Position numbers and translations under genes: made by a program
The notes under the pieces: generated by a model
The model's database searches: none
Seen by the model: the letters and a program-made list of their open reading frames with translations, nothing else
Told to the model about the DNA's origin: nothing
Shown: positions 25,225-58,725 of the stretch, one piece after another
Position numbering within the stretch: position 1 is the first letter of the stretch
How the letters are laid out: each line of letters opens with the position of its first letter
NCBI GenBank assembly: GCA_028688015.1
Contig: JAQTZB010000003.1
Location: 62,001-126,000 of the forward strand
Origin: Elusimicrobiales bacterium
Lineage (GTDB): Bacteria; Elusimicrobiota; Elusimicrobia; Elusimicrobiales; UBA9959
Direction of reading: 5' to 3'
DNA: 64,000 bases

Positions 25225-26099
25225 ACTGCAAGCTCTGCGGCGGCGCCCTGCGGCGCGAAATCCTGCGGTCCCAGGACAGCGCCATCCTGCGCTGCCCGGC
25301 CTGCGGCTTTATCTGGCGCGACCCGTACCGCGGCTGTGCGGCCGCCAAGTGCGCGGCCTGCGCCGACCGGTGCATAGACCGCCTGGCCACCCCCGGCTTC
25401 CTTGAAGCGCGGCTGCGCGCCGACGGGCGGCGGGCCGCCCGCGTGGCGCGACTGGCCGGCGGCGACCTGTCGGGGCTGGCGGTGCTTGAGCTGGGCGCCG
25501 GACTAGGATGCCTCGCCTCCCACCTGCAGGCGGCGGCCGGCCAGTATGTCGGCCTTGAGTCCTCGCCGGTCTTCTACGGCTGCCTGCGCCAGGCCTTCCC
25601 GGACCTCGCCGGCAAGGTAGAGAACGCCCTGCTGCCCGGCCCCGAGCACAGGGGCCGCTTCGACCTGCTGGTGCTGGTGGACGTGCTGCAGTTCGCCCCC
25701 AAACCCCTGGAATTCCTGCGCGAGGCCCTGCTCGCCCTGAAGAAAACAGGGCGGGTCTACATCGAGATCCCCGACGAGTCGCTGATGCCCCTGCGCGCCG
25801 CGGCCCGCAAAGCCCTGGGGCTTTACGGCGGCAGCCCGCTGCACCACGGCCACATCAACTTTTTTACGCCGCGCTCGCTGCGCTTCCTGCTGAAGGAGGC
25901 GGGGCTGCGAGCCGAGACCCTGCGCCAGACCAGCATCGTGGCCGATGAGGACCGCTTGTTCCTCACGCTCAAGCGCCGGCCGCCCGGCTGGGCGCGGGCC
26001 CTGTCGCTGGCGGCCCGCCTGACCGGGGCCGACACCCTGGTGCGCCTGGGCAACACGGTCTGCGTGGCCTCCAGGAAAAAATCAGGGGGCGGCGCGTGA
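25221..26099 (+). CDS. Class I SAM methyltransferase with N-terminal zinc-knuckle
   Basis: 292 residues. The N-terminus has two CxxC pairs (CKLCGG and CPACGF) typical of the zinc-binding lead of methyltransferases that act on sugars or lipid heads, with further cysteines at KCAACADRC. VLELGAGLGC is the SAM-binding loop, LVDVLQFAPKPLEFL the following helix, and HHGHINFFTPRSLRFLLKEAG a motif common in Methyltransf_23-type O- or C-methyltransferases. Overlaps by four bases with both neighbours. The methylated molecule is unknown. Confidence 0.72.
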   Translation: MNCKLCGGALRREILRSQDSAILRCPACGFIWRDPYRGCAAAKCAACADRCIDRLATPGFLEARLRADGRRAARVARLAGGDLSGLAVLELGAGLGCLASHLQAAAGQYVGLESSPVFYGCLRQAFPDLAGKVENALLPGPEHRGRFDLLVLVDVLQFAPKPLEFLREALLALKKTGRVYIEIPDESLMPLRAAARKALGLYGGSPLHHGHINFFTPRSLRFLLKEAGLRAETLRQTSIVADEDRLFLTLKRRPPGWARALSLAARLTGADTLVRLGNTVCVASRKKSGGGA

Positions 26100-28114
26100 A
26101 GCCCTTCGACCCCTACCGCCTGGACCGCCGGCTGATGCGCGCCGCCGCCAAAGAGACCCGCGCGCTGCAAGCGGCGGGCTTTGCGCCATACCGCGCCGCG
26201 CTGGAAAAGGACTTCGCCGCCTTCGTCGGGCGGCGCTTCTGCCTGCTGACCGACAGCGGCCGCACCGCGCTGCGCCTGGCCGCACTGGCGCTGCGGCCCG
26301 GCGGGGGCACCGCGGCCTTTCCCGACATCACCCACCCGTCGCTGGCCGAGGCCGCCGAAGGTTTCCGGCTGCTGCCGCTGGACATAGACCGCCGCACCCT
26401 CAACCTTTCGGCTGACGCGCTGGAAGCGGCCGCGCCAGGGCTGGACCTGCTGCTGCTGCCGCACATGTTCGCCACGCCGGCGCCGGTGGCTGACGCCCTG
26501 CGCCTGGCGCGCCGGCACGGCTTCGCCGTCATAGAGGACGCCTCGCAGATCCTGGGCGGCGCGCTGCGCGGCAAAAAATTCGGCTCCTTCGGCGACATAA
26601 GCGTGCTGTCGCTGTCGCCCTACAAGCCGGTATCTTCGCCTTTCGCGCGGGCCGGCGCGCTGCTGTGCGACTCGCCGGAACTGTTCAGAAAAGTGCTGGC
26701 GCTGAATCCGCCGCCGCCCAAGCCGCAGGCGCTGCCCTTCCTGAAGCTGAAGCTCGAGCGGCTGCCAGCCACGCTGAAGTCCTCGCGCACCGCTAACGCC
26801 TTTTACCGCGCCGCGCTCAAAGGGCATCCAGGCGTCGTGCCGGGCGGCCTCAGCCAGGACGCGCAGGAATTCCCGCTGCTGCTGCCCGACCGCGCCGGCG
26901 CGGAAGAACTTTTCAAGGCGGCCGGAGTACCCCTCGAGCGCCCCTACCGCCCGCTGCGGCTGGAGAAAGGGCTGCCGGGCGTCCTTCCGACCGCCGACGA
27001 GTATTGGCGCGGGGCCGTTCACCTGCCGGCCTGGCCCGAGATGACTGCGGCGGAATGCCGCCGGGCCGCGGCTTTGGTAAACCGGCATCTGGCCGGCGCG
27101 CAAAAGCTTCCCGCCCCGGCAAAAAAGCTGCCGCCGCCTTCCTATATAGCGCTGGACCTCACCTACCGCTGCGGGCTGGACTGCTCTTTCTGCTTCGTCA
27201 AGCGCCACGGACTCGGCGGCGGGCGGGAGCTGGACCTGGCCGGCTGGCTGCGGGCTATAAAGAAGCTCGGGCCTGGCGCGAAGAAATTTTACCTGACCGG
27301 CGGCGAGCCGCTGCTTGTGCCGTTCCTGCCGAAACTGATAATGAAGCTCAAAGAGATGGGGCACTCCTCGCTGGTAACCACCGCGCTGTTCGCCCCGGCG
27401 GCGCGGGCCGCGGCGCTGGCGGCGGCCGGCCCCTCCGAGATAGTGGTTTCGGTGCATGGCTGGCCCGCCCTGCACGAAAGCTCCGCCGGCGCGCGCGGCG
27501 CGTGGCGCACCGCCCTGCGCAACTTGGAACTCATCAAAGCCCGCCGGCAGCCAGGCACCCGCCTGACCCTTTGGTGCACTGTCAACAGCTCCAACCACGC
27601 CGGCCTGTACCGCGCCTACCGGGCCTTGAAAGCCCTCGGCCCCGACGGCATAGCCTTCAACCACCTCGAATTCACCACGGAACGGGACCTGGCGGCCACG
27701 CGGGCCCTGCTGGCCGGCTCAGGCTTTGAGACGCCCATGAAGGCCTCTGCCGCGCCGACCGCAGGCATAGACCCCAAAAAGCTTTCGGCGCAGATAGCCA
27801 GGATCAGGGCCTCCGCCGGCCCGTCAGTTTCTTTCTACCCTGACCTCTCCGGGCAGGCGCTGCGGGCGTGGTACTCGACCCGGTCAAATTTCAAAAAGCC
27901 TGGCTTCTGCCGCGGCCAGTTCAGCGCCGCCTGGCTGTCGCCCTCGGGCGAACTGCTGAGCTGCCAGCCTTTGGCCGTGACCCTGGGAGCGCCGGGCGCC
28001 TACAACGGTCCGTCCTACGCCTCTTTCCGCAGGTTGCTGCTCAAGAGCGGCGGCTTCCTGCCGGCCTGCCGGCGCTGCGGCCGCGAGCCCTATTCCTCGG
28101 CGGGCGCCCGGTGA
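26096..28114 (+). CDS. Fusion of DegT/DnrJ-type PLP aminotransferase and radical SAM enzyme
   Basis: 672 residues, GTG start overlapping the upstream stop. Residues about 1-335 follow the DegT/DnrJ/EryC1/StrS fold: DSGRTALRLAAL, FPDITHPSLAEA, HGFAVIEDASQ (aspartate facing the PLP ring) and LSLSPYK with the Schiff-base lysine K177 present, so the domain may be active. A proline-rich linker leads to the rSAM core with C359, C363 and C366 (TYRCGLDCSFC), YLTGGEPLL and later cysteines (GFCRGQF, LLSCQPLAV, PACRRCGRE) for an auxiliary cluster. Aminosugar aminotransferase and rSAM activities in one chain point to modification of an amino-sugar or aminoacyl intermediate. Confidence 0.78.
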   Translation: MKPFDPYRLDRRLMRAAAKETRALQAAGFAPYRAALEKDFAAFVGRRFCLLTDSGRTALRLAALALRPGGGTAAFPDITHPSLAEAAEGFRLLPLDIDRRTLNLSADALEAAAPGLDLLLLPHMFATPAPVADALRLARRHGFAVIEDASQILGGALRGKKFGSFGDISVLSLSPYKPVSSPFARAGALLCDSPELFRKVLALNPPPPKPQALPFLKLKLERLPATLKSSRTANAFYRAALKGHPGVVPGGLSQDAQEFPLLLPDRAGAEELFKAAGVPLERPYRPLRLEKGLPGVLPTADEYWRGAVHLPAWPEMTAAECRRAAALVNRHLAGAQKLPAPAKKLPPPSYIALDLTYRCGLDCSFCFVKRHGLGGGRELDLAGWLRAIKKLGPGAKKFYLTGGEPLLVPFLPKLIMKLKEMGHSSLVTTALFAPAARAAALAAAGPSEIVVSVHGWPALHESSAGARGAWRTALRNLELIKARRQPGTRLTLWCTVNSSNHAGLYRAYRALKALGPDGIAFNHLEFTTERDLAATRALLAGSGFETPMKASAAPTAGIDPKKLSAQIARIRASAGPSVSFYPDLSGQALRAWYSTRSNFKKPGFCRGQFSAAWLSPSGELLSCQPLAVTLGAPGAYNGPSYASFRRLLLKSGGFLPACRRCGREPYSSAGAR

Positions 28115-28884
28115 AGAACGCGCTCACGGTGGACCTGGAAGAATGGCACGACACGGTGCTGTTCGACGGCGCTCCGGCCGGCTCGGGCGAGTTCGAGCGC
28201 TGCGTCGACGTCATCCTGGCGCTGCTGGAGCGGCGCAAAGCCAAAGCTACATTTTTCATGCTGGGCCGGCTGGCCCAGGCCTATCCGCAAGTCGCGCGCG
28301 CCATAGCCGGCGCGGGCCACGAGCTGGCCAGCCACGGCCACGAGCACCGCTCGCTCTGGCGCCTGACCCCGGAGGAGTTCTCCGCCGACCTGGCGCGCTC
28401 CCGCGCCGCCCTCGCCGCGGCCGCCGGCACAGCGCCCCTCGGCTACCGCGCCCCCACCTGGTCGCTAAAAGGGCGGGCCGCCGAATTCCTGCCGCTGATC
28501 AAGGCGGCCGGTTTCGCTTACGACTCCAGCCTCTACGGCCTCGGCCCGGGGGCACCGCGCTCGCCTTACCAGGTCATCGACGGACTTACGGAGTTCCCCC
28601 CGTCCGTCGCCCGCTGCTGCGGCCTCGGCTTGCCGTTCCTGGGCGGCACCTTCCTGCGCTGGGCGGGCGCCGGCTTCCTGCGGCGCCGCGTCGCCGGGCT
28701 AAACGCCGCCGGCCTGCCGGCCGTGCTCTATTTCCACTCCTGGGAATTCGGGAGCGTGCCGCCCGGCCTGCCTTTTTACAAGCGGGCCGTTCAATACTAC
28801 AATGTCAGTAGCGTCCCGGTTAAGGCGGAGGCCCTGCTGGAAGAGTTCGCCTGGGCCCCGATGCGGGAGCTGCTGAACCTATGA
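28111..28884 (+). CDS. NodB-type polysaccharide deacetylase
   Basis: 257 residues from a GTG at 28111 that overlaps the previous stop; the frame upstream to 27868 lies inside the rSAM fusion gene. ALTVDLEEWHDT carries the metal-binding aspartate, ASHGHEHRS the two histidines, GYRAPTWSL the arginine strand and LYFHSWEF the late histidine. This pattern is that of the DUF3473/PEP-CTERM-type deacetylases that act on exopolysaccharide. No signal peptide is visible. It is coupled to the next rSAM gene (ATGA). Confidence 0.75.
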   Translation: MKNALTVDLEEWHDTVLFDGAPAGSGEFERCVDVILALLERRKAKATFFMLGRLAQAYPQVARAIAGAGHELASHGHEHRSLWRLTPEEFSADLARSRAALAAAAGTAPLGYRAPTWSLKGRAAEFLPLIKAAGFAYDSSLYGLGPGAPRSPYQVIDGLTEFPPSVARCCGLGLPFLGGTFLRWAGAGFLRRRVAGLNAAGLPAVLYFHSWEFGSVPPGLPFYKRAVQYYNVSSVPVKAEALLEEFAWAPMRELLNL

Positions 28885-30029
28885 AGCGCGACTGCTGCGA
28901 AATAATCTTAAACCACGCCTGCGACCTGCGCTGCGGCTTCTGCTCGCAGGCGGACTTCGACCCGGGAGCGGTGCTGCGCCCGGCCGACGCCGTGCGCCGC
29001 ATCTACGAGGCGAAGACGGCCGGCTTCACGCGGCTGGGGTTCTCCGGCGGGGAGGCGCTGCTGCGCCGGGACCTGGCGCCGCTGGTAAGGGCCGCGCGGC
29101 GCGTCGGGTTCAGGGCCGTGCGGCTGCAGACCAACGGCGTGCGGCTGGCGGACGCCGCGCTGGCGGCCCGGCTGGTGCGCGCGGGGCTGACCGTCTGCAA
29201 GTTCACTTTCGCGGGCCACACGCCCCTGCTGCACGACAGGCTGGTGGGCCGGGCGGGGGCTTTTAACAAAAGTCTCGCCGGGCTGGGCAACATGCTGCGC
29301 CTGAAGACCGCGGTGGGCGTGAACCTGCTTATCACGCGCGCCAATTACCGCGCCCTGCCAAAGACGCTCGAATTCTTCATGGGCAGGGGCGTCGCGAATT
29401 TCGTGCTGATCTATCCTATCCACACCGGGGCGATGGCCCGCGCCGGCCGGCTGCGCGTCAGCCTCCCCCAAGCCGCGCCCTTCATAGCCGAGGCGCTGCG
29501 CGCCGCCGATAAAGCGGGGCTTGGCCGCGAGGTCAAGGCGCTCAACGTCCCGCCCTGCCTGCTGCCCGGCTTCGAGGACCGCGCGGCGGGGCTCTACAAA
29601 TTCAACACCGTCGTGGTCTCCGCCTCCGGCGAGGCGCGCGACCTCGACGCCTGCACGGCGGCCGACCGCGAACAGGGCCCGCCTTGCGCGCGGTGCTTCT
29701 TCAGGAAGACCTGCCGCGGAGTGGACCGCAATTACCTGCGCCTCTTCGGCTGGGTAGGATTCCGGCCCGTAACCGGCAAGCCGGTCCCGGCGCCCGCCGC
29801 GACGGGCCCGCTGCTGACGGATAACGAAAAATGTTTTCTCGAGACGCTGCGCGGCAAAAAGGAACTCTCCACCGCCCGGATCCTGGCGGCCGCGAAGAAG
29901 GTCCCGCTCTGCTACGACTGCTCCGACGGCAACAGCGTGCTGGCGACCGGCCAGGCCCTGGTCAGGAAGGGCCGCGCCGCCCGTTCTTTCAGGAACGGCG
30001 TCTATTACTGGAGGCGCACGGATGCTTGA
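28881..30029 (+). CDS. Radical SAM protein with C-terminal DCSDGNSVL domain
   Basis: 382 residues. NHACDLRCGFC (C14, C18, C21) is the cluster motif, GFSGGEALLRRDL the next strand. At about 185-275, VPPCLLPGF, then CARCFFRKTCRG and LFGWVGFRPV form an auxiliary cysteine domain. A final domain of about 70 residues starts LLTDNEKCFLETL, contains CYDCSDGNSVL and ends GVYYWRR; it looks like a winged helix with a conserved cysteine pair. The 49422 protein has the same architecture and the same final domain. Overlaps the next gene by eight bases. Confidence 0.75.
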   Translation: MKRDCCEIILNHACDLRCGFCSQADFDPGAVLRPADAVRRIYEAKTAGFTRLGFSGGEALLRRDLAPLVRAARRVGFRAVRLQTNGVRLADAALAARLVRAGLTVCKFTFAGHTPLLHDRLVGRAGAFNKSLAGLGNMLRLKTAVGVNLLITRANYRALPKTLEFFMGRGVANFVLIYPIHTGAMARAGRLRVSLPQAAPFIAEALRAADKAGLGREVKALNVPPCLLPGFEDRAAGLYKFNTVVVSASGEARDLDACTAADREQGPPCARCFFRKTCRGVDRNYLRLFGWVGFRPVTGKPVPAPAATGPLLTDNEKCFLETLRGKKELSTARILAAAKKVPLCYDCSDGNSVLATGQALVRKGRAARSFRNGVYYWRRTDA

Positions 30030-31359
30030 GCAGCTGCTGCGCGCCGCCGGAGACTGCGGCCTGGCCCTGGACCTCCGCCGCCGGGAGCGGAAGTTCTCCG
30101 CCGCATTCGCTCCGGGCTTTGACGCGGAAAAGGCCCGGGCGGTCCTTTACCCGCTGCTGGCCGCGCTGGAAGAGAACTTCCTGGTCTCGGTGACCGGCGC
30201 GCCGGCCTGCCTGATGCCGGACGCCTTCGAACATTTTACCTGGCCTCTGGGCGCGCGCGGCCGGTTCCGGCGGATCAAAGCCTGCGGGCGCTGCGTCCTC
30301 AGCGGGCGCTGCCCCGGGCTCGACGCGGCCTGGGCGGGGTGCTCCCTTTTAAAACCGGTCCTGCCTGTCCCGGCTGAAATAGTGCTGGAGCTGAATAAAA
30401 AGTGCAACCTGGCCTGCCGCGCCTGCTTCGGCCGGAGCGGCGAGGAGCTGCCGCGAAATACAGCGGAGCGCGCGCTGCGCGAAGCCGCCGCCCTGGGCGT
30501 AAAGAGCGCCCGTTTCACCGGCGGGGAGCCCCTGCTTTACCACGGGCTGGAGCGCCTGCTTCGCCTGGCAAAAAAGCTGGGCTTCTACACGCTGCTCAAC
30601 ACCAACTCCGTGCTCCTCTCCCCGGCCCGGGCACGGGCCCTGGCCGGCCTGGTGGACAACGCCCTGATCTCGCTGCCGGGCCCGGACGAAGCCTCCCACG
30701 CCGCCGGCTCGGGCCGGGCCGGCACCCTGGCGGCCAAAACCGCGGCCGTGAAGCGGCTGCGCGCCGCCGGCGTCAAAGTGGTGCGGGCCGGCACGGTGGT
30801 CTCCAGGCAGGCTATAAATAATTTTACTCGCTGGCGGGCTGCCGTAAGCGCGCTCGGCTTCGACCTTTGGGAGCTTTACCGCCCGATGCTGCAGCCCGAC
30901 GCGCTGGAAGCGGCGCCGGAGTTCAAGCTCTCCAGGCGGGACTTCGCCGCGCTGGCAAAGAAGGTCGCGGCGCAGCCGCGGGACGGGGCCAGGGCGGTAC
31001 TGGCCAACCCCGTACCCTTCTGCGCGCTGCCGGCCGCCGCCCTGTCCTGCGCGCTGGGCGCGCGGTTCGACGACGGCTGGACACGGCTGGTGCTGGACGC
31101 GGCCGGCGCCTGGAAGCCCAGCTACCCGTCGTGCAAATTCCTGGGCGCCTCGCTGGCGCGGGCCTGGGCCCATCCCTTCCTGAAAAAACTGCGCGGGGCC
31201 GCCTGGCTGCCGGTGCGCTGCCGCACTTGCCCCATGCTCCAGGTCTGCCTGGGCGGCAGCCGCTTCCAGGCCGGTGAGGCCGGGGACGTCTTCGGCCCGG
31301 ACCCGTGGATGGCCGCAGAGAATAACCGTAAAGATGGTTCCCTGAAGGCTGTTCGATGA
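30022..31359 (+). CDS. Radical SAM protein with cysteine domain placed at the N-terminus
   Basis: 445 residues. The first 115 residues are unusual: APACLMPDAF and KACGRCVLSGRCPGL (C63, C88, C91, C97, C107) resemble the C-terminal auxiliary domain of the neighbouring rSAM proteins, but lie before the core. The core has NKKCNLACRACF (C128, C132, C135), RFTGGEPLLYHGLE and a C-terminal CRTCPMLQVCLGG auxiliary segment. The substrate is unknown. It overlaps the upstream gene by eight bases and the downstream deacetylase by four. Confidence 0.72.
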   Translation: MLEQLLRAAGDCGLALDLRRRERKFSAAFAPGFDAEKARAVLYPLLAALEENFLVSVTGAPACLMPDAFEHFTWPLGARGRFRRIKACGRCVLSGRCPGLDAAWAGCSLLKPVLPVPAEIVLELNKKCNLACRACFGRSGEELPRNTAERALREAAALGVKSARFTGGEPLLYHGLERLLRLAKKLGFYTLLNTNSVLLSPARARALAGLVDNALISLPGPDEASHAAGSGRAGTLAAKTAAVKRLRAAGVKVVRAGTVVSRQAINNFTRWRAAVSALGFDLWELYRPMLQPDALEAAPEFKLSRRDFAALAKKVAAQPRDGARAVLANPVPFCALPAAALSCALGARFDDGWTRLVLDAAGAWKPSYPSCKFLGASLARAWAHPFLKKLRGAAWLPVRCRTCPMLQVCLGGSRFQAGEAGDVFGPDPWMAAENNRKDGSLKAVR

Positions 31360-32063
31360 AGGCTTTTTTCCTCCGCTGCGACGACGTGGTCCGGCCCGAC
31401 CGGGCTTTCCTGAGGGTCTTCAACCTGCTCGGCGGCCTGGGCCTGCCGCTCTCCTGCGCCGTCATCCCGGCCGGGGCGGGCAAGGCGCTAGCGGCCTTCT
31501 TCCGGCGGCAGCGGGAGCTGGGCGCCAGGACCGAGGCGCTGCAGCACGGCCTTTCCCACGCCGAGCACGCCGGCAACAGGTATTTAAAGCACGAGTTCGG
31601 CCCCGCGCGGAGTTACGAGGAGCAATTGGCCGACCTGGCCGAAGGCAAAAAACTGCTGGCCCGGCTGCTGGGCAGCACGCCGCCGATCTTCGTTCCGCCC
31701 TTCCACGCCTACAATTCGGATACCCTCCGGGCGCTGCGCGCTTTGGGCTTCCGGGGGCTCTCCGCGAGCCGCCGGCCCGAACGCCTGCCGCGCGGCCTGG
31801 CCTTCCTGCCCACGCGGGTGACGGTGAATGAATACGACCTGCGGCTGGAGCCGCGCCCGCTGGACCTGCGGCTGCTAAAAACGCGCACGCTCGCTGCGCT
31901 GAAAGAAAAAGGGCCGGCGGGGATCTATTTCCACCACGCCGACCTCAACGCCAGGGATTATAAAGTTTTTTCAGCCTACGCCGTTTTCCTGAAGGACCTC
32001 TCCGACCGCGGCCTCGCCCGCTTCGCCCTCTGCTCCGAACTGCTCAAAAGATCCGCTCGATAG
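31356..32063 (+). CDS. NodB-superfamily polysaccharide deacetylase-like protein
   Basis: 235 residues. LRCDDVVRPD (D9, D10) and QHGLSHAEH (H64, H68) give the metal site, FVPPFHAYN the middle strand and IYFHHADLNAR the final histidines of the NodB/DUF2334-like deacetylase fold. Without a signal peptide it would act in the cytoplasm or at the inner face. It closes the plus-strand operon. Its last 20 bases overlap the convergent rSAM gene at 32044, so neither gene has room for a terminator. Confidence 0.65.
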   Translation: MKAFFLRCDDVVRPDRAFLRVFNLLGGLGLPLSCAVIPAGAGKALAAFFRRQRELGARTEALQHGLSHAEHAGNRYLKHEFGPARSYEEQLADLAEGKKLLARLLGSTPPIFVPPFHAYNSDTLRALRALGFRGLSASRRPERLPRGLAFLPTRVTVNEYDLRLEPRPLDLRLLKTRTLAALKEKGPAGIYFHHADLNARDYKVFSAYAVFLKDLSDRGLARFALCSELLKRSAR

Positions 32064-33003
32064 GGAACCGGTGGCAGCAGCGCGCGCAGCCGCGCGGCAG
32101 CCCCCCTTTTACCAGCCTCCGCTTGGCCTTCAGCAGGCCCGCCCGGTCGAAAGCGCGCACCGTGCCGCCCGCCGGCGCTGCGTAGAGCACGCAGGTCCTG
32201 AAGCGGCCGTCGGGCTCTACGTTTAAAGTGGAGAGCAGCGGGCAGCCTCCGGAGACGCGCGGGGTGCCGTTGTAATAGCGCTCCAGCTCCGCCCGGCTGA
32301 AGTCTGGCCGCAGCTCGAAATGAGTTTTAAACGCCCCGCGCAGGGCCTTTATCCTGTTTATAGAGCGTTCGAGCGTTCTTACAGCCAGGCGGCGGGGCGA
32401 CAGCCGCGGGGCCAGGAGGTCAGCGGCAGAAAGCCCCGGCGCCTCCCCCTTTTTGAGGAACTGCAGGTGCTCGAAAACAGCCCGGTCGGCGCCGGCGCGG
32501 GCGGCCTCCAGGTAGACGGCCGGCAGCAGCGCGGCGTTGGCGGGGCTTATCACGCAGTTGGTGATTATTTCCGTGCCTGGCTTTTTCTGCGCCGCGGCGG
32601 CCTTTACGGCCGCCAGCACTTTTTTGTGCGCGCCCGTCACTCCCAGCAAGCGGTCGTGCAGGGCAGCGGGCCCGTGCAGCGAAAAAATAACGTAGGCCGG
32701 GCGCAGCGACATCAGCTTTTTAATTTTAGACAGCGGCAGGCGCAGGCCGTTGGTGTTCACGCCCCAACTGAGGCCGTGCGACGAGGCATAGGCAAGGATC
32801 TCGAAGATATCTTTCCGCACGAAGGGCTCGCCGCCGCTGAAATAAAAGCGCGTCCCGGCGGGAAAGCGGCGCAGGAAGGCTTTCAGGTCGGCCGCGCTCA
32901 GTTCGGGGCCGCGGGAGTTCAGGCGGCCGGTGCGCCCGAGGTAGCAGAACGAACAACCGGCGCCGCAGCGCCAGGTCAGCTCCATCATCACGTTCAGCGG
33001 CAC
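32044..33003 (-). CDS. Radical SAM/SPASM-like protein downstream of Hxs locus A
   Basis: 319 residues if read from the GTG at 33003 (ten-base overlap with the glycosyltransferase); GTG 32991 or ATG 32988 are possible, and the frame up to 33222 is a shadow. ELTWRCGAGCSFCYLG (C13, C17, C20) is the cluster motif, YFSGGEPFVRKDI follows, and VIFSLHGPAALHD is typical of peptide-modifying rSAMs. C-terminal GGCPLLSTLNVEPDGRFRT, CVLY and GCARCCHRF form a SPASM-like domain. Last gene of the Hxs locus A operon, so it may act on the same peptide or its glycan. Confidence 0.72.
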   Translation of the reverse strand: MPLNVMMELTWRCGAGCSFCYLGRTGRLNSRGPELSAADLKAFLRRFPAGTRFYFSGGEPFVRKDIFEILAYASSHGLSWGVNTNGLRLPLSKIKKLMSLRPAYVIFSLHGPAALHDRLLGVTGAHKKVLAAVKAAAAQKKPGTEIITNCVISPANAALLPAVYLEAARAGADRAVFEHLQFLKKGEAPGLSAADLLAPRLSPRRLAVRTLERSINRIKALRGAFKTHFELRPDFSRAELERYYNGTPRVSGGCPLLSTLNVEPDGRFRTCVLYAAPAGGTVRAFDRAGLLKAKRRLVKGGLPRGCARCCHRFPIERIF

Positions 33004-34115
33004 AGGGCCTCCAGCTCGCGGGCCGACCTGGCGGCCCCGCAAAACCAGGCGGGCTTTACCCGGGCCGAGCGCCACGCCGGGCGGGAGAGGGCGCGCCGCA
33101 CGGCAGCCGCCACCTTGCCGGGAGTGAGATCGGCCGGCAGCAGCAGGCCGGCGCCCGCCAGGTCGCGGGCCAGCCAGGCGCGGGCCAGCTGGTCGGCGTG
33201 CTCCCGGCCCCTGGCCCCGCAATAGGGCGCCAGCACCATTTTAGCGCGCTGAGCGAGCAGCTCGTAGACGGACCCGCCGGCGGTAGAGACGCAGGCGGCG
33301 GCCTTCGCCATCAGGGCCGGCAGATCGGTATAGCCGAACAGCACGGCGGCGTCGCCGCCGCAGGCCGCGGCCAGCCGGCGGAAGCGCTCCAGCTTGGCGG
33401 GCGGCGTGGAAGTACCGGCGACTATCAGGAAAGGGCGGCCGACGAGGGGCGCCGCGCCTATGGCCGCCTCTACCAGCCGGTCCGAGGTGGACCCGCCGCC
33501 GCGGGTGACCAGGATGAATTTCTCTTTTTTCGCGGGCCGGGCGGCCTGCGGCAGCAGCCAGCCGGTAAAGACCAGCTTGCGGCGCAGCGCGCCGAAGACG
33601 GAGAGGAAAGCGGCGCGGGAGACGCGGCGCTCCAGGGCCACGGCCGCAGCCATGCAGGGCAGGTCCGCGCCGGCAGGGCTGTGCACCAGGAGCTTGTCGT
33701 AAAGCGCGCAATCGGCGAGCAGGTCCGGCAAGGCCTTTTCCGGCGCGGTGAAATACGGCATAGGTACGCTGGCCGCAATTTTAGCGCCTAGCCTCCGGGC
33801 CGCGGCCAGCGCAGGGAGGAGCTCCGGCCGGCACTCCCGCCGGCCGAACGGGAAGAATTCCGTCACCAGCAGCTCCGGGCGGAAGCGCCGCAGCGCGGCA
33901 GCCAGCGCGCGGCCGGCGGCGGCCGAAGGCGCGGCCGGCAGCGGCCGGACTTCGCCGTAGTTTTCAAAGAGTTTGTGGGGGTAGGAAGAAGGGGCCCGGA
34001 GGAAAATTAAGTTGCGGCCGCCGCGGGGTTGAGCCGCAAGCAGCCGCAACAAGTGTACGGCGTGCCCGATATCCCCCGAGGGATTATGAAGGTAAAAAAC
34101 GCGTCGCCCGGGCAC
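32994..34115 (-). CDS. Predicted MurG-like glycosyltransferase (COG4671 type)
   Basis: 373 residues. LLVTEFFPFGRRECRPELLP is the mark of the COG4671 predicted glycosyltransferases; FILVTRGGGSTSDRL, VLFGYTDLPALMAKAAACVS and GGSVYELLAQRAKMVLAP follow the GT-B C-terminal half, where the nucleotide sugar binds. It begins 15 bases after the stop of the Ser-His-Gly repeat peptide gene and is read in the same direction, so glycosylation of the serine-rich peptide or of a linked polymer is possible but not shown. Confidence 0.7.
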   Translation of the reverse strand: MPGRRVFYLHNPSGDIGHAVHLLRLLAAQPRGGRNLIFLRAPSSYPHKLFENYGEVRPLPAAPSAAAGRALAAALRRFRPELLVTEFFPFGRRECRPELLPALAAARRLGAKIAASVPMPYFTAPEKALPDLLADCALYDKLLVHSPAGADLPCMAAAVALERRVSRAAFLSVFGALRRKLVFTGWLLPQAARPAKKEKFILVTRGGGSTSDRLVEAAIGAAPLVGRPFLIVAGTSTPPAKLERFRRLAAACGGDAAVLFGYTDLPALMAKAAACVSTAGGSVYELLAQRAKMVLAPYCGARGREHADQLARAWLARDLAGAGLLLPADLTPGKVAAAVRRALSRPAWRSARVKPAWFCGAARSARELEALCR

Positions 34116-34130: not shown

Positions 34131-34439
34131 TCAATACGAGCCGTGCGAGCCGTGAGACCCGTGCGAGCCGTGGCTGCCGTGCGAGCCGTGCGAGCCGTGC
34201 GAGGCGTGTGAGCCGTGGCTGCCGTGACTGCCGTGCGAGCCGTGGCTCTGGTGGCTGACGTGCTGGGTCGTGTTGAAGTAGTTGGAGTGGACCTGCGCCG
34301 AAGCCTGCTCCACCAGCGCAGTGCCCAGGATGCCCAGGGCCAGGCCGGTCTTCACGATATCGGCGTCGAGCATCTTGCCTTCCTCGCTGCTGAGGAACAT
34401 GCGGATGTTCTTTTTGAGTTTCGAAGTTTTGTTTTTCAT
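34131..34439 (-). CDS. hxsA: His-Xaa-Ser repeat peptide, HxsA-like
   Basis: 102 residues from the ATG at 34439, preceded by AAGGCGG; the frame upstream to 34739 overlaps the previous gene. The basic, acidic and then hydrophobic N-terminal part (FLSSEEGKMLDADIVKTG, then LALGILGTALVEQASAQ) resembles a leader with a possible membrane or export signal ending in AQA-like sequence. Residues 62-100 are 13 Ser-His-x triplets, x being Gly except Gln in the first and Ala in the sixth, and the chain ends Ser-Tyr. Repeats of this kind together with an HxsB enzyme define the His-Xaa-Ser system, whose chemistry is not established. Family membership is inferred from repeat and context. Confidence 0.75.
   Translation of the reverse strand: MKNKTSKLKKNIRMFLSSEEGKMLDADIVKTGLALGILGTALVEQASAQVHSNYFNTTQHVSHQSHGSHGSHGSHGSHASHGSHGSHGSHGSHGSHGSHGSY
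34140..34256 (-). repeat. Nine-base coding tandem repeat (Ser-His-x)13
   Basis: Thirteen in-frame nine-base units on the minus strand encode the Ser-His-x triplets of the HxsA-like peptide. The units differ by synonymous changes in the serine, histidine and glycine codons, so selection on the protein rather than recent slippage maintains them. Confidence 0.85.
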
Positions 34440-34450
34440 ATAGCCGCCTT

Positions 34451-35548
34451 TTATTCTCCGCCCTGTTTCCCTATCAGCTTGCGCACGCGCTCGTTGGTCT
34501 GCTTGGTGATGACGTCCAGCTCTTTGCGCGCCTTCTCGTCTTCGGCCTTCTTCTGGGCCTTGAGGCGCAGGTCTTCCTTCACTTCGTCGGGCGTCAGGCC
34601 CGCGTAGCCGCCGGAGCCCTTCACGAGGGCCTTGTAATAGACGCAGTACTTCCTGGACATCTCCATGATGATATCGACGCAGGGCGACTGGCTCTTCTCG
34701 GCCAGCGCCGCGCAGTGCGGCGCCCTGGAGGGCGGGCACTTATCCGGCGAGCCGGTCCGGATGCCTTCCCAGAGGGCGTTGTTCGCGAGGCAGACCGGGT
34801 CCGAGCCGCAAACCTTCTTGGTGAAAGCCATCATCTTCTCGCCGATGCCGAAATACTGCGGCATCTTGGCCCGGCCGTATTCGGTGAATTTTTCCGGCCC
34901 CTTGGCCGCGGCCTCGCAGAACTCGGGCGCCGAAACCCTGCCCTGGTCGGTCGGTTCCCACTGTGCCAGGTAGGCCAGGCAGTTCTGCTGGTCCTTGGCC
35001 TTGCCGGCCACGTAGGCCCTGAAGAGCAGGTCGGCGGCTATGCCGCGGCAGAGGCCGAGCGGGCTGTCGTCGAGGGTGATCTTGAAGCCGTTGGCGTCGG
35101 TCTCCCCGGGCAACTCGTTGCAGGTCGTTATGTCCTGGCGGGCCACGGAGAGGCAGGCGTAGTAGCTGGCGATGTAGGTGTACATCTCCTGCTTCTGATT
35201 CGTGTCGAAAGCGGCGCGGCGGCCCGTGAAGTGGCCCCAGGTCTTGCCGTGGGCCTCCATGATCTCTTTCGGGGAGCCGCCCTCGCAGGCGCCTTTAAGG
35301 GCCATGACGGGAGCGGGCAGCGTGAACATCTCGTAGCTGCCCATGGCCTGGGTGGGCACATAGACGGATTCCGAGTTGATAGCGGAATAATCCTTGGCCG
35401 CGGTGGGCAGGGCCACGCCCTGCTGTTCCTGCTGGCCGGCCGGGGCGGCGGGGCGCTGGACCGCGGCCTGTTCTTTAGAAGCGAAAAATTTCAGGCCGAT
35501 CAAGGCGGCCGCCAGCACCACGACTACTCCAATAATGAGTTTTTTCAT
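34451..35548 (-). CDS. Membrane-anchored 12-cysteine protein of Hxs locus A
   Basis: 365 residues from the ATG at 35548. One N-terminal hydrophobic segment (residues 4-20) and a proline/glutamine linker suggest an anchored, periplasm-facing protein. The rest has exactly 12 cysteines, for example in YYACLSVARQ, APEFCEAA, DPVCLANN and SPCVDIIMEMSRKYC, an even number that fits disulfides or metal binding. The C-terminus is a charged helix after GGYAGLTPDEVKEDL. The 54534 protein beside the second HxsB is a clear paralogue along its length. I recognise no described family. It sits between hxsB and the repeat peptide gene, so a role in receiving or exporting the modified peptide is a reasonable guess. 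Confidence 0.75.
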   Translation of the reverse strand: MKKLIIGVVVVLAAALIGLKFFASKEQAAVQRPAAPAGQQEQQGVALPTAAKDYSAINSESVYVPTQAMGSYEMFTLPAPVMALKGACEGGSPKEIMEAHGKTWGHFTGRRAAFDTNQKQEMYTYIASYYACLSVARQDITTCNELPGETDANGFKITLDDSPLGLCRGIAADLLFRAYVAGKAKDQQNCLAYLAQWEPTDQGRVSAPEFCEAAAKGPEKFTEYGRAKMPQYFGIGEKMMAFTKKVCGSDPVCLANNALWEGIRTGSPDKCPPSRAPHCAALAEKSQSPCVDIIMEMSRKYCVYYKALVKGSGGYAGLTPDEVKEDLRLKAQKKAEDEKARKELDVITKQTNERVRKLIGKQGGE

Positions 35549-35622
35549 AACGTAACCAATAGACCCCCCGGCTTTCCGGCGCGGGCCGGGAAACCTACCC
35601 ATATGTTTTACCACATAAATCG

Positions 35623-37023
35623 CTAATTTTCAAGCCATCCCCTAAACACCTTTAAATTATCTTTATCGGTTAGCCGCGCGAAGATATGGTCGAAGACACC
35701 CATAAGGACGCGGCAGCGCGCGTTGGAAGGCATGTCGCCCCAGAAACCGCCCTGGGCCGCGGCGTTATAGGCCGGGCAAACCCCGCACCAGGCCTTGTAG
35801 GCGCAGCGGGCGCAGGCCGGCTGCAGGTCCAGGCTGGAAGCCAGGGCGCAGGCCCGGACCGGGGCCGAACTTATAAGTTTTCCATAGGAATCCCTCACGC
35901 TCCCCAGCCGGAAGGAGCGGTCCCCGTCCCGGGCCAGCATGCGGCCCTCGTCGCAGGTGTAGACGCCACCGTCCACGTCGTAGGCCAGCTGGCCCAGCCC
36001 GGCGCCGCAGGGGCAGCGCAGGTCCACGTATTTATTGTCCTGGGTGCCCAGGATCTTTTTGACCAGCAGGAACGCCGTCTTCTCTTTGATGGGCGTGCCG
36101 CGGCGGTTCAGCTCCAGCACCCGGTCGAGGCCGGCGCGGTAGAAAGCCAGGAACTCTTCCGGGGTGTAGCCGATCTCGCCCCAGAGCTTAGGGGCCTGGC
36201 CCATCGGCGTGAGAGGCCGCAGAAAGACGTAGGGCAACTTAAGGCGGGCGTACTCGTCCACTATCTCCCTGGCGCGGGGCAGCGACGCGCGCGTGACGGT
36301 CAGCAGCGCGCTGGGCCCGCCGGGCGGCTGCGTGCCGCGGCGCTGCTGGAAAAATTTTATCCACTTCACGGCCAGGGCGTGGGAGTTTCCGCCGCGAAAG
36401 GGCCGGTTGGCGTTGTGCAGGTCCGCCGGCCCGTCGAGGGAAGTGCAGACGGAGATGTCGTTCTTGATGATGAACTCAGCCTTCGCCTCGTCCAGCAAAC
36501 TGAAGTTGGAAACCAGGGCGAGCGCGAGCTCCTTGCCTGTCTTCTCCGACTTGCTCCGCGCGTAGAGGGCGGCCTCTTTGAGCACCGGCCAATTGAGCAG
36601 CGGCTCGCCGCCCTGGAACTCCAGGGTCAGCCCGGTCACCGGCGCGGAAAAGGCCAGGTCTACGGCACGGCGGGCCGTGGACGCGCTCATGCGGGCGCCG
36701 CGGCCGGAGCCGGCCTGGCAGTAAAGGCAGCCATGGTTGCAGTCCTGGGTCAGCACAAGGATGTGCAGGCCCGGGCCCCGCTCCAGGTACTCGTTGGAAT
36801 CCCGCCAGTCGGCCGAGAGCGTGTCGAAATCCAGCCGGGAACTTACCAGGCCGGCCTTTTCCAGCGCCTCCAGCGCGGCCCCTTGCTTAAGCCGCCCCGC
36901 GGCGAAAGCCTTGAAGTCGGCGGGCTTGAGCAGCGCCCAGCCGCCCAGGTCGCCGACGGCCAGCACGCCGCCCGGCAGGCGGCGGAAGTTAAAATAGGCG
37001 GGCTTGTTCCGCGGTTTCCTCAT
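35623..37023 (-). CDS. hxsB: His-Xaa-Ser system radical SAM maturase HxsB (locus A)
   Basis: 466 residues. YFNFRRLPGGVLAVGDLGG at the N-terminus, HILVLTQDCNHGCLYCQ (C95, C99, C102), LEFQGGEPLLNW, SNFSLLDEAKA, CTSLDGPADLHNANRPF and FLRPLTPMG follow the HxsB order. The SPASM part has CPCGAGLGQLAYDVDGGVYT, CDEGRML and CARCAYKAWCGVCPAYN. HxsB acts with partner proteins on histidine/serine repeat peptides; the modification is unknown. A TATAAT box lies nine bases ahead of the ATG with no ribosome site. The stop is 74 bases from the next gene of the locus. Confidence 0.85.
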   Translation of the reverse strand: MRKPRNKPAYFNFRRLPGGVLAVGDLGGWALLKPADFKAFAAGRLKQGAALEALEKAGLVSSRLDFDTLSADWRDSNEYLERGPGLHILVLTQDCNHGCLYCQAGSGRGARMSASTARRAVDLAFSAPVTGLTLEFQGGEPLLNWPVLKEAALYARSKSEKTGKELALALVSNFSLLDEAKAEFIIKNDISVCTSLDGPADLHNANRPFRGGNSHALAVKWIKFFQQRRGTQPPGGPSALLTVTRASLPRAREIVDEYARLKLPYVFLRPLTPMGQAPKLWGEIGYTPEEFLAFYRAGLDRVLELNRRGTPIKEKTAFLLVKKILGTQDNKYVDLRCPCGAGLGQLAYDVDGGVYTCDEGRMLARDGDRSFRLGSVRDSYGKLISSAPVRACALASSLDLQPACARCAYKAWCGVCPAYNAAAQGGFWGDMPSNARCRVLMGVFDHIFARLTDKDNLKVFRGWLEN

Positions 37024-46353: not shown

Positions 46354-47606
46354 TTCCCCCGGCCGAGCAGGGAGAGATATTTTTCGAGGGCCCCGGCAAA
46401 ACAGCTGACGTCGCCGGGGGTATTGTAGGCGAAGAAGGAGAGCCTTATGGTTTCGGCGTAGCCGGAGTTCAGGCACGCGAGGTCGGCGCAGTGGCGGCCG
46501 GTGCGGACCGCTATCAGGGAGCCCTTCACGCCCTCGTTCAGGAAAAGGCTGAAATCCGGCACCGAAAAGCCTTTCACCGCCGGCGCCAGCGAAACCAGCG
46601 AGCCGCCGGGGATGTCCTCCGGACGGCCAAGCACGCGCACGCCTTTCACGCCGCCCAGCTCCTTCAGCGAGGCGGAGACCAGCGAGGAGACGTGCGCCCT
46701 GATGGCCGGGAAGCCGGCCCTGGTCAGGCGCTCCAGCGCGGCGGCGAGGCCGGCCGCGCCGGAATAATTCTGCACTCCGGCCTCGAAGCCCTGGTAGCCG
46801 CCCAGGTAGCGCACGCTGTAGCGGCCGGCCGCGGCGGCTACTTCAGCCACGGTGCCGCCGCCCACACGGGAGGGGCGCAGCCGCTCCAACAGCGGCCGCT
46901 TCACGCAGAGGGCGCCGGTAAAGTAAGGCGCGCCGAGCTTATGGCCGGAGAAGGCGCAGGCGTCGGCGCCGTCGGCTGCGCCGCAGCGGCCGTGCGTCGG
47001 CGCGTACTGCGCGTCGTCGCAGAAAAGGTAAGCCCCGGCGGCGTGCGCTATCTCGGCGGCGCGGCGCACGTCGGCGGTGCCGCCGAAGATATTGGGCGCG
47101 TGCGTCACGCAGACCAGCGCCGTCCTGCGCGTAACCAGACGGGCCAGGCCGTCCAGGTCGACGCCGAAATCCTTCAGCGGCGCGACGCGCAGCTTTATGC
47201 GGCCGGCCGCGGCCAGCCGCTCGAACGGCAGGAAGACGGCGTTGTGCTCGAGCGGCGACAGCACCACCTCGCTGCGCTGCGGGGTGAAAGGGAAAGAGTT
47301 AGCCAGCAGGTTGGCGGCGTCGGTGACGCCCGCGGTGAAGATCACCTCTTCCGGAGAGCCGCCCATGAACGAGGCGGCTACGGAGCGGGCCGCATGGAAA
47401 TTCTCCTCCATCGCGGAGGCCAGCGAATGCAGGGAGCGCTTGCCGCCGCAGCCGCCCAGCAGCAGCATGTGCCGGCGCTGCGCGTCGGCCGCGCAGCGCA
47501 GCTTCAGCACCGTGCAGGCGCTGTCGAGGTAGACCAGGCGGCGGCCGCCGAAGCGCTCGTTCAGCGTCGGGAATTCTTTTTTAAGAGCGGCGAGGTTCTT
47601 GTTCAT
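46350..47606 (-). CDS. SufS-like cysteine desulfurase (class V PLP enzyme)
   Basis: 418 residues. LEHNAV (H120), FCDDAQ (D198), FSGHKLGAP with the PLP lysine K223, and RTGRHCADL with the persulfide cysteine C373 fit SufS/CsdA-type desulfurases, in which sulfur is taken from cysteine for Fe-S clusters or thio-modifications. Many clustered rSAM enzymes need multiple Fe-S clusters, or the enzyme could feed sulfur to a peptide. No SufE or scaffold gene is nearby. Four-base overlaps with both neighbours place it firmly in the operon. Confidence 0.8.
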   Translation of the reverse strand: MNKNLAALKKEFPTLNERFGGRRLVYLDSACTVLKLRCAADAQRRHMLLLGGCGGKRSLHSLASAMEENFHAARSVAASFMGGSPEEVIFTAGVTDAANLLANSFPFTPQRSEVVLSPLEHNAVFLPFERLAAAGRIKLRVAPLKDFGVDLDGLARLVTRRTALVCVTHAPNIFGGTADVRRAAEIAHAAGAYLFCDDAQYAPTHGRCGAADGADACAFSGHKLGAPYFTGALCVKRPLLERLRPSRVGGGTVAEVAAAAGRYSVRYLGGYQGFEAGVQNYSGAAGLAAALERLTRAGFPAIRAHVSSLVSASLKELGGVKGVRVLGRPEDIPGGSLVSLAPAVKGFSVPDFSLFLNEGVKGSLIAVRTGRHCADLACLNSGYAETIRLSFFAYNTPGDVSCFAGALEKYLSLLGRGK

Positions 47607-48448
47607 AAGGTCTTATGCACGGCTATGTAGTCCTTGCGCGGGCCGGGGCACAGCTTTACGAAGCGGCAGCCGCGGCAGGCCGGCACGCGGGCCTTTTCCT
47701 GCAAATGCGGGCCGTCGCGCCCCTCCCTCATTTTAACAATATCGACGTTGAGCCTGTAAAAATCGCCGAGGAAGCAGGGCGGGATATGGTCCACCTCGCA
47801 GCGAAGTTTGGCGGCCTCGCAGGCCGCGAGGGCTTTCAGCAGGTAGGGCCGCACGGCGGCGTAGCGCGGCAGGTACTTTTTTCCCGCCGCACGGCCCAGG
47901 CCCTTGATGTAGCTGAACTGCACCCACGCCGCGCCCGGCAGTTCCCGGGCGACGAAAGCGGCGAAGGCCGGCAGCTGTTTGTAATTCAGAGCGGTGATCA
48001 CGTGCGTCAGGCGCACCGGCGCGCCCGACGCTATCAGCCGGCGCACGCCGGCCGTCCGCTTCCTGAACCCTCCGGGCGCGCGGGTGATCTTCAGGTCCAG
48101 CGCGGCTGTGGCGGCCGGGAAATTCACGTTGAAATAGCCGCGGGCGGCCCGCAGGGTTTTGGCGATAGCGGCCAGCTCGGAGGCCGGCAGGTCCGCGGCG
48201 GCCAGCGCGTTGGTCTGCAGCTCGGCCCGGCGCCCCAGCTTTTTAACGGCCGCCAGCAGCATACAGAGGTTCTCCGCCCCGGCCAGCAGCGGCTCCCCCC
48301 CGGAGAGCTGCACAAGCCCGGGCGGCATGGCGGCGATCTCCTTCAGCCAGGCCTTCAGCGAAGGGGCGGGGTCCCGCCCGCCCTCTGCCGGATAGGAGCA
48401 GAACGCGCAGCGCTGGTTGCAGCGGCGGAACAGGTGGATCAGCGCCAT
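47603..48448 (-). CDS. Small radical SAM protein with auxiliary cysteine domain
   Basis: 281 residues. LFRRCNQRCAFC (C10, C14, C17), VQLSGGEPLLAG, then the C-terminal VDHIPPCFLGDFY and PACRGCRFVKLCPGPRKDY. The pattern Pro-x-Cys, then CxxC and a later CxG is shared with the 28881, 49422, 50612, 52686 and 53593 proteins, a second rSAM paralogue group in the window. The shortest member; it lacks the winged-helix-like end. Immediately upstream of the cysteine desulfurase. Confidence 0.72.
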   Translation of the reverse strand: MALIHLFRRCNQRCAFCSYPAEGGRDPAPSLKAWLKEIAAMPPGLVQLSGGEPLLAGAENLCMLLAAVKKLGRRAELQTNALAAADLPASELAAIAKTLRAARGYFNVNFPAATAALDLKITRAPGGFRKRTAGVRRLIASGAPVRLTHVITALNYKQLPAFAAFVARELPGAAWVQFSYIKGLGRAAGKKYLPRYAAVRPYLLKALAACEAAKLRCEVDHIPPCFLGDFYRLNVDIVKMREGRDGPHLQEKARVPACRGCRFVKLCPGPRKDYIAVHKTL

Positions 48449-48475
48449 AGGGTCATTGTAGGAAACATCCAGCCT

Positions 48476-49417
48476 TCAGCCTCTCTTTTTCGCCGTAAAA
48501 TTCAGCAATTCGAAACGCCCCGGCACCTTTTCCCGGGGCCCGCTGTCAGTGCGCCACGCCAGGGCTGCGCCGCCGGCGGCGGCCAGCGAGCCGCAGCGCT
48601 CCAGCACCCTGGCGGCGGGCGCCGGCAGCAGGGAGCGCGGCGGCAGCAGGCCGCTGTAGCGCACCTCATCTCCGGAGCCGGTTCCGTTCAGTACCGCATA
48701 GCTGTATTTTCCGCCGAACAGCAGCGGCCGCGCGAGGGTTTCTTTCAGCTGCAGGGCCCGCGCCGGCAGGTACTCCTCGAAGAAGCGGAAGATCTCCCGG
48801 CCCAATTGCGCGCTCCGGGCGCAGTTGTAGGAGCAGGGGTGCCAGCTGATGATCTGCAGGGCCGCTATATCCAGCGCCTTATTGCGGGCGCGCAGGCGGT
48901 CGAAGGCGGCCCTGTCCGCTGGCGTTCCGGTCAGGCGGGAAAAATAGTTGAAGACGTTGTTGAGCGTGAAGTCCAGCCGCCCCCTGTCGGCGGTGTTGGC
49001 AAGGATAAAGTCCACCAGGTCCGTGGTCTCCGCCACGGCGCGCCAGGCTATATACGCCTTCACACAGCACTCCGGGTAGCCCAGCAGCACGCCCCAGGCC
49101 GGGTCCGTCGGGGAGCGATGCCAGCTCTCGGCCGCCAGTTTAAGGTCCTTCAGCCTCCGGCCTATCAGCAGCATCCGCTTGCCGGAGGCCGGCACGGCCT
49201 TGAAGCCTTTCGCGCCGTAAAGTTCTTCCGGGAAAACATAGTGCAGCTTCAGCTCTGCACAAAGCACGCGGACATAGTCCCAGCCGGCGGGCTCGAAGTC
49301 GGTATAGAGCACGGGCTTGGCGCCGATCAGCAGGGCGGCCAGGTCGGAGAGCCCGGGGTCGCAATCCCGCAGGGCTGTGAGCCGGCCGAAAGGTTTTTTT
49401 AACTTGAGCAGGGGCAT
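48476..49417 (-). CDS. Uncharacterised GYPECC protein (DUF483-like)
   Basis: 313 residues. The striking element is LLGYPECCVKAY (GYPECC at about 113-118), with a further HPCSYNCARS near 193. A GYPxCCV signature is what I recall of DUF483-type proteins, which often occur near rSAM genes; assignment is tentative. Between the motifs the protein is mixed alpha/beta without a recognisable catalytic set. The paired cysteines could bind an Fe-S cluster, zinc or carry a persulfide from the nearby desulfurase. Placed between two rSAM genes with gaps of four and 27 bases. Confidence 0.55.
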   Translation of the reverse strand: MPLLKLKKPFGRLTALRDCDPGLSDLAALLIGAKPVLYTDFEPAGWDYVRVLCAELKLHYVFPEELYGAKGFKAVPASGKRMLLIGRRLKDLKLAAESWHRSPTDPAWGVLLGYPECCVKAYIAWRAVAETTDLVDFILANTADRGRLDFTLNNVFNYFSRLTGTPADRAAFDRLRARNKALDIAALQIISWHPCSYNCARSAQLGREIFRFFEEYLPARALQLKETLARPLLFGGKYSYAVLNGTGSGDEVRYSGLLPPRSLLPAPAARVLERCGSLAAAGGAALAWRTDSGPREKVPGRFELLNFTAKKRG

Positions 49418-49421
49418 GGCG

Positions 49422-53579: not shown

Positions 53580-53592
53580 AGCGGGGGCGCGG

Positions 53593-55623: not shown

Positions 55624-55917
55624 TCACCGGCGGCCCGGCTTGTCGCCGGCCGCTGAAAGCAGCGCCTTGGTGGAGAGCAGCGAAGCGTAGCGGGAATTCT
55701 TCAGGCCCAGGTCCAGGCGGCACTGCTGGTTGAGCGCCTCGTTGGCAAAATCGCCGGCGGAATTTTCGGGGCCGGTCACGTCGGCCCGGAGGCCGCCGGG
55801 GGCCTTGGAGAGGGCGATCGCGGCGCGGCCCTCGAAGACGGCGGCGGCCAGGCGCACGGCCTCGGCGCTGTACAAGGCTGAGCTGAAAACTACGGTCTCG
55901 GTTTTCGCGGGCTTCAT
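55624..55917 (-). CDS. hxsD: HxsD-like small protein 1
   Basis: 97 residues from the ATG at 55917, overlapping the hxsB stop (ATGA); a GTG at 55929 is possible. The layout is that of HxsD: an initial strand-helix (VVFSSALYSAEAVRLAAAV), a short strand region and the closing helix FANEALNQQCRLDLGLKN followed by LLSTKALLSAAG. HxsD accompanies HxsB/HxsC and may present the peptide to them; this role is not established. The position directly after hxsB is the normal one. Confidence 0.7.
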   Translation of the reverse strand: MKPAKTETVVFSSALYSAEAVRLAAAVFEGRAAIALSKAPGGLRADVTGPENSAGDFANEALNQQCRLDLGLKNSRYASLLSTKALLSAAGDKPGRR

Positions 55918-58656: not shown

Positions 58657-58725
58657 ATACCCTCCGCGCGGAGCGGGCGAAAGACTGCCCGCTGGGCGCA
58701 ATACAGGTTATACCCTAATAATATA

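Follow-up and report, generated by a model that had tools for sequence, protein, structure and literature searches.

The 64,000-nucleotide stretch of DNA analysed here, hereafter the window, covers positions 62,001 to 126,000 of contig JAQTZB010000003.1 of an Elusimicrobiales bacterium, whose genome comprises 3.34 Mb in 58 contigs, and carries two operons of the His-Xaa-Ser (Hxs) type, one of which, locus A, contains a repeat-bearing precursor peptide of the HxsA4 subfamily, a radical SAM maturase (HxsB) and a cysteine-rich, membrane-anchored protein that we call CysR. The main new result is that CysR is linked to this type of peptide and not to the enzymes, a link for which the evidence is fairly strong. 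We further propose, with a probability of roughly 0.55, that an HxsA4-type peptide-modification pathway is split over the two operons and operates according to the scheme outlined below. A partner that stays with its peptide after the splitting of an operon provides a handle on the fate of this peptide after modification.

The core of locus A consists of three genes on the reverse strand. The first, hxsB (35623-37023), encodes a radical SAM/SPASM His-Xaa-Ser maturase of 466 residues scoring 440 bits with TIGR03978 (cut-off 370), in keeping with the identification made in a first-pass annotation of the window, which had been drawn from the letters of the DNA; the result named there as a refutation, a lack of any HxsB profile match, did not occur. 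The second, CysR (34451-35548), is a protein of 365 residues with 12 cysteines and a predicted N-terminal helix at residues 2-25, as likewise described there; since CysR belongs to no described family, the picture of an extended Hxs locus with a novel cysteine-rich partner stands. The third, hxsA4 (34131-34439), encodes a precursor peptide of 102 residues with 13 Ser-His-x triplets followed by a final Ser-Tyr, the position and the repeat count being as previously annotated. This peptide passes the HxsA4 model NF038313 (86.2 bits, cut-off 55) and is the sole HxsA4 match of the genome (85.6 bits in the genome profile search). Among the profiles TIGR03976-TIGR03979, proposed at the outset for comparison, that for HxsB is passed, that for HxsA (TIGR03979) is failed by the peptide at 8.8 bits (cut-off 121.65), HxsA4 being passed instead, and those for HxsD and HxsC are approached below their cut-offs by genes elsewhere in the window. 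Both the HxsA4 subfamily and the second operon had been overlooked. The claim that hxsC and hxsD are missing is accurate for the operon of locus A, where neither gene was found, and fails for the window as a whole, in which HxsD- and HxsC-like genes lie at 57807-52686.

These latter genes belong to locus B, 16-19 kb from locus A and on the same strand, where the order is barnase, barstar, p577, HxsD1-like, second HxsB, HxsD2-like, CysR2, HxsC4-like radical SAM and HxsC-like radical SAM. The second HxsB (55914-57374) passes TIGR03978 at 479 bits, and in a genome search with the locus A protein it is 53% identical over a match at window 55923-57323. The neighbouring genes are called 'HxsD-like' and 'HxsC-like' because their scores fall below the curated cut-offs: the HxsD1-like protein (57340-57807) reaches 20.5 bits with TIGR03976 (cut-off 50) and the HxsD2-like protein (55624-55917) 20.9 bits with NF038315 (cut-off 41), in each case the only family listed, and the two radical SAM proteins have as their best families NF038332 (HxsC4; 147 bits, cut-off 500) for 53593-54513, which also reaches 89 bits with TIGR03977, and TIGR03977 (HxsC; 143 bits, cut-off 267.9) for 52686-53579. 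CysR2 (54534-55619) is a CysR paralogue with 14 cysteines (27% identity, E 3e-44). Upstream of the HxsD1-like gene, here as in relatives, lies p577 (57829-58701), a secreted or anchored protein that matches no Pfam family and occurs once at full length in the genome; it contains C-terminal cysteines as well as a TTYYPAPYGGY stretch and could be a second substrate. No Ser-His repeat peptide is present in locus B, the sole such repeat of the window being that of locus A. The AlphaFold2 model of HxsD2 (predicted local distance difference test, pLDDT, 88) is of alpha/beta type with weak matches to KH and Pcc1 (best E 0.03), and we do not claim for it the role of the usual winged-helix recognition element.

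In relatives the gene order was followed in 40 neighbourhoods, which were chosen because the CysR profile matched there, by a script ordering the matched open reading frames (ORFs) per strand. The series p577-HxsD1-HxsB-HxsD2-CysR-HxsA4 forms one strand-wise run in 14/40 neighbourhoods, and HxsD1 through HxsA4 does so in 17/40; with its CysR taken from the true start, L061 would join both counts, as a fifteenth full run; the order in L060 differs. A split of the run is seen in 15 genomes, the window species being one of them: CysR and the peptide lie in locus A, and locus B holds HxsB, HxsD1, HxsD2 and other radical SAM genes. Of these 15 genomes, 12 possess a separate HxsB in locus A (contigs end in G221 and G272, and none adjoins in G213), and all except G213 and G229, the latter stopping at a contig end, have a glycosyltransferase (GT) there. 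The peptide-less operon retains HxsD2 in 15/15 and HxsD1 in 14/15 (with a contig end in G272). CysR stands beside the peptide in all 15 split genomes (cut by the contig end in G272), and its copy in the peptide-less operon is intact in five (G000, G241, G267, G243, G272), truncated in two (G110, G281) and absent from eight (G057, G154, G220, G263, G221, G222, G213, G229); a further peptide-less operon (G080, L180) preserves a CysR remnant of 112 residues only. Because CysR is kept beside the peptide in 15/15 genomes, and is lost or truncated in 10/15 peptide-less operons that keep HxsD2, it seems to serve the peptide.

One question then is whether the two loci constitute one pathway. In L048, from another genus of the family, the full run is followed by the GT and by rSAM_A, a radical SAM gene found also in locus A, and in L067 a single run extends from HxsD1 to the GT, its HxsB being broken by a stop. 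Because L048 holds all core genes and the GT in one run, loci A and B most likely serve one pathway. The opposing view, that they are separate pathways, each with its own HxsB and CysR, and that locus B acts on another substrate, such as p577 or an unrecognised peptide, would account for the maintenance of locus B without a repeat peptide in 15 genomes and for CysR2 still being intact in five of them. The HxsB tree is also compatible with it: of the 18 copies that lack an HxsD neighbour, 17, the window locus A copy among them, fall into a single clade whose main group sits on a long stem, such as a change of function would leave. Six locus B copies were taken into this tree and cluster with a single-operon copy; eight later locus B copies and the partial G272 copy are outside it. 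Separate pathways are harder to reconcile with the loss or truncation of the locus B CysR in 10/15 genomes, with the finding that no HxsD-like gene is seen beside the locus A HxsB copies in the relatives' neighbourhoods, and with L048 and L067, where HxsD1, HxsD2, one HxsB, CysR, HxsA4 and the GT occupy one run, and we consider them unlikely.

Counts that are free of the selection by CysR come from a sample of 294 Elusimicrobiota genomes, drawn from a larger group, and from genome surveys of HxsA4 and the GT in the family of the window. HxsA4 is found in 73/294 genomes of the sample and CysR in 54, of which 44 belong to the window's family, nine to f7 and one, a marginal match, to f12; 51 genomes have both, 3 CysR alone, 22 HxsA4 alone and 218 neither. 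Several CysR matches, those of G028, G080 and f7 among them, span the profile incompletely. Two of the CysR-alone genomes (G168, G291) do carry a repeat peptide on direct reading, from which G266 was left out. Outside this sample count, CysR lies within 7 kb of 51 of the 60 repeat peptides read in the family. A limitation of CysR to one family was considered and rejected in view of the marginal f12 match and the weak matches in nine f7 genomes that also hold HxsA4; two f7 loci, L106 and L107, have their CysR-like gene upstream of HxsD1 and not next to the peptide. In the f8 locus L110 (9871-10815) an unrelated-looking, signal-bearing protein with 10 cysteines, which matches no Pfam family and not the CysR profile, occupies the place of CysR between HxsB and HxsA4.

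As for the protein itself, the 12 cysteine columns are conserved in 33-35 of 35 CysR homologues (eight in all rows, four in 33 or 34), and all 12 are common to CysR2. Two further columns (307 and 344) are both cysteine in 19/35 rows, both without it in 14 and cysteine at the second only in two; being gained or lost together, they show the pattern expected of a disulfide. A strict pairing of these extra cysteines with Cys-ended peptides was rejected, as L048 and L067 combine them with Tyr-ended peptides. The AlphaFold2 model built on this alignment is largely helical (mean pLDDT 87, predicted template modelling score 0.75), with a single N-terminal helix and a helical domain. Searches of the PDB gave no sequence match and no fold match (best E 0.79), the window copy matched nothing in Pfam, where isolated weak matches occur among the 35 members, and the best NCBIfam match has E 1.9. 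The suggestion that the anchored protein exports the peptide is unsupported and was rejected: the protein has one predicted anchor and a helical domain, with no match to a transporter family, to Pfam or to a PDB fold, and the peptide has a signal-like Ala-x-Ala site of its own.

Could CysR instead be an immunity protein, protecting its producer from an antimicrobial Hxs product? Immunity proteins likewise stay with their peptide gene, and locus B is headed, in the window and in many relatives, by genes for a barnase-like secreted ribonuclease (59761-59171, PF00545 E 3e-13) and a barstar-like inhibitor (59165-58779, PF01337 E 4e-21), both on the reverse strand, which might mark a locus of competition; the same pair heads the Hxs cassette in L036, L037, L040, L043, L045, L058, L065, L068, L074, L265-L270 and L272. 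Typical bacteriocins are patchily distributed. HxsA4, in contrast, is present in 36/38 good genomes of the window's family, which argues for a standing role, and its repeats are simple and conserved, not diversifying. Immunity thus appears very improbable, and the distribution suggests that the peptide has a standing function in the envelope, either structural or in binding metal, and is not an optional antibiotic.

Turning to the peptide, its layout comprises a leader with the motif F-[LF]-x-S-E-E-G-K, a moderately hydrophobic stretch, a conserved Ala-x-Ala-like site and the Ser-His-Gly repeats; since the leader has both the hydrophobic stretch and the Ala-x-Ala-like site, Sec export with cleavage by signal peptidase is plausible. 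Runs of at least three [ST]-His-x triplets occur in the six frames of the window in the peptide repeat only, and in 20 shuffled windows (non-overlapping base pairs, a rough control) the longest runs were 1 to 3, by which a chance origin is rejected. Nor does the repeat look like a recent product of DNA slippage, because its serines are written with five different codons and because it differs from that of relative G241 by silent changes in 18 codons and by one residue. Among the matches listed, the named relatives of the peptide are mostly metagenome-assembled Elusimicrobiota genomes, and Elusimicrobia bacterium GWD2_63_28 ranks first among them. A second type of repeat peptide, with a hydrophobic MAGA-x-x-GLGMG-like leader, a cysteine before the repeats and a Tyr end, occurs with no CysR near in L117, L118, L119, L165, L167, L168 and L170; in L117 it is flanked by small proteins with signal-like starts.

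That the repeats are modified at all is inferred from the membership of the maturase in the HxsB family. An alternative is that the peptide, with little or no modification, serves as a His-rich protein for metal binding or adhesion, and that the radical SAM enzymes mature another target, such as CysR or p577. The repeat indeed gives a weak collagen match (PF01391 E 4e-5, below the cut-off), CysR and p577 also accompany HxsB, and HxsB and HxsD2 persist in the peptide-less locus B of 15 genomes. Yet repeat peptides lie near HxsB also in loci of, among others, Omnitrophota, Bdellovibrionota, Myxococcota and Pseudomonadota, in which a search for CysR yielded a single borderline match and none besides (p577 was not searched there), and p577 is not among the genes of 11 f7/f8 loci. 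We judge this alternative decidedly unlikely.

Downstream of hxsA4, on the same strand, lie the GT gene (32994-34115) and rSAM_A (32044-33222 as listed; PF04055 E 7e-16), which follows the GT in relatives also and was rightly annotated as a radical SAM gene. The listed rSAM_A ORF overlaps the GT gene, and hence its true start is probably further inside. The GT had been named from the window alone; its copy there matches no Pfam family, and the assignment gains support from homologues, 11 of 13 alignment members matching PF04101, the GT28 C-terminal domain, at E up to 1 (best 1e-7). The GT occurs in 19 of 59 family genomes in 20 copies, 18 of which adjoin hxsA4 at 300 bp or less; one lies 1.6 kb from it in the same locus and one is in G030. 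The G030 copy (L171:8625-11229) stands beside an HxsB in whose vicinity no Ser-His repeat peptide was found, and its substrate may be another peptide. Of interest here are the C-termini of the 60 family peptides, which end in Tyr (31), Gly-Trp-Cys (25) or Gln-Trp (3), one being truncated where its contig ends. The GT lies close to 20/31 Tyr-ended peptides as against 0/28 other complete family peptides, and to none of the f7/f8 peptides (12 rows, including one wrong-frame duplicate). Three changes are required for the Tyr end and five for the GT when both are placed on the HxsB tree of 61 rows, and in random independent pairings the GT moves with Tyr in 2.2 of the three on average and never in the opposite direction, which is not significant. 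Glycosylation of the peptide is possible, and a sugar on the C-terminal Tyr is a suggestive lead; a dedicated GT yields a testable prediction for this end of the peptide. Ser-His repeat peptides from Myxococcota, Bdellovibrionota, Pseudomonadota and one other bacterium have Gly-Ser-Trp or Gly-Gln-Trp as their last residues (L228, L231, L235, L237, L241, L246, L247, L248, L256, L264), so that an aromatic C-terminus is common; it is not universal, the peptides of L111, L225 and L253 ending otherwise.

The scheme that we favour would combine these elements as follows. Locus A would supply the precursor, its own HxsB, CysR, the GT and a further radical SAM enzyme, and locus B would provide in trans the HxsD-like proteins, the second HxsB and the HxsC-like radical SAM enzymes. 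In a first, cytoplasmic step HxsB, aided by the HxsD-like proteins, would read the leader and modify the repeats, probably once per His-Gly-Ser triplet, where a His-to-Ser link inside each triplet would be our guess. In the Tyr-ended variants the GT might then, on slender grounds, add a sugar to the C-terminal Tyr. The peptide would leave the cytoplasm by its own signal, with a cut after Ala-x-Ala. CysR, anchored in the membrane with its helical domain probably held by six disulfides, would act after export, and the genetics and predicted topology suggest that it could receive, fold or retain the exported peptide. More tentatively, and at clearly less than even odds, CysR and the Ser-His-Gly peptide may together form a two-component envelope structure, in which a His-studded strand, stiffened by radical SAM chemistry and in some lineages capped by a sugar on Tyr, is held at the membrane by a disulfide-locked helical receptor, for whose fold the search of solved structures gave no match, the whole being near-core for the envelope of the family and not a secondary metabolite. 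The single-operon relatives L048 and L067 suggest compact gene sets for expression.

A number of points weigh against this scheme. The choice of the 40 neighbourhoods by CysR match is a selection bias, the HxsD- and HxsC-like genes all score below their curated cut-offs, and both the six disulfides and the outward side of CysR are predicted. An apparently intact CysR2 is kept without an adjoining peptide in the window and four relatives; in G086 no CysR lies within 7 kb of the peptide, and the contig carries it at a distance of about 33 kb; and CysR is lacking in the vicinity of eight Tyr-ended peptides whose leader is of another type. Among the loci from outside Elusimicrobiota in a scan with the leader pattern F-[LF]-x-S-E-E-G-K, which covered 80 of 83 confirmed loci, CysR is missing apart from one borderline match of 25 bits in Omnitrophota. 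Given these CysR-less loci and the eight peptides with the other leader, HxsA4-like peptides do not generally need CysR. The GT is lacking near 11 Tyr-ended peptides, and its connection with Tyr was downgraded from a proven link after the tree test, since with about three origins significance is out of reach. Finally, curated models exist for His-Xaa-Ser systems, yet the literature searched (most subscription papers lie outside it, and studies may exist) contained no Hxs peptide product, chemistry or function, and nothing on Hxs in Elusimicrobiota.

The surroundings of the two loci contain further genes, surveyed in relatives with our own ORF and composition gene calls, some of which are clearly wrong-frame. 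Radical SAM genes are very dense at window 26096-33222 and 47603-54513, with deacetylase genes between, and one of them (26096-28114) is fused to a DegT-type aminotransferase domain. Downstream of locus B lies a conserved protein (52689-51538) with no Pfam match and an RDLATRKIPN stretch reminiscent of A24 prepilin peptidases. In L122 (12597-16528) NifH-like (PF00142 E 2e-57) and nitrogenase component 1-like (PF00148 E 4e-33) genes lie upstream of an Hxs cassette, and genes of the same clusters occur in L072 and L106.

Comparison with known systems places the window close to some and apart from others. Apart from its own model, HxsB comes nearest to models that include the thioether maturases of the PapB/SCIFF type (PapB 108 bits, cut-off 340); the window peptide has no cysteine in its repeats, so that no thioether is possible there. 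With the triceptide systems (HaaB, YhhB, MscB) locus A shares a SPASM radical SAM enzyme and a three-residue aromatic-x-y unit, whereas its HxsB scores far below their models (GrrM/OscB 41 against 310 bits, YhhB 35 against 445). Among known radical SAM peptide enzymes, HaaB and YhhB make His C2 to C-beta links, MscB joins Phe C4 to Ser C-beta, and HghC joins Ser O to His C-beta; His and Ser are each able to enter three-residue links of this kind (PMC11002830). In the one paper found to bear on Hxs chemistry, HxsB and HxsC appear as clusters annotated earlier, for which Haft and Basu are credited, with a putative part in maturation (PMC9062424); PMC8446631 reportedly also names Hxs genes. With the His-Xaa-Ser systems themselves the window has in common a peptide and an HxsB that pass the curated cut-offs (NF038313 and TIGR03978), and it differs from them in that its HxsD- and HxsC-type genes stand in a second operon and score below the models, and in the addition of CysR, the GT and further radical SAM genes.

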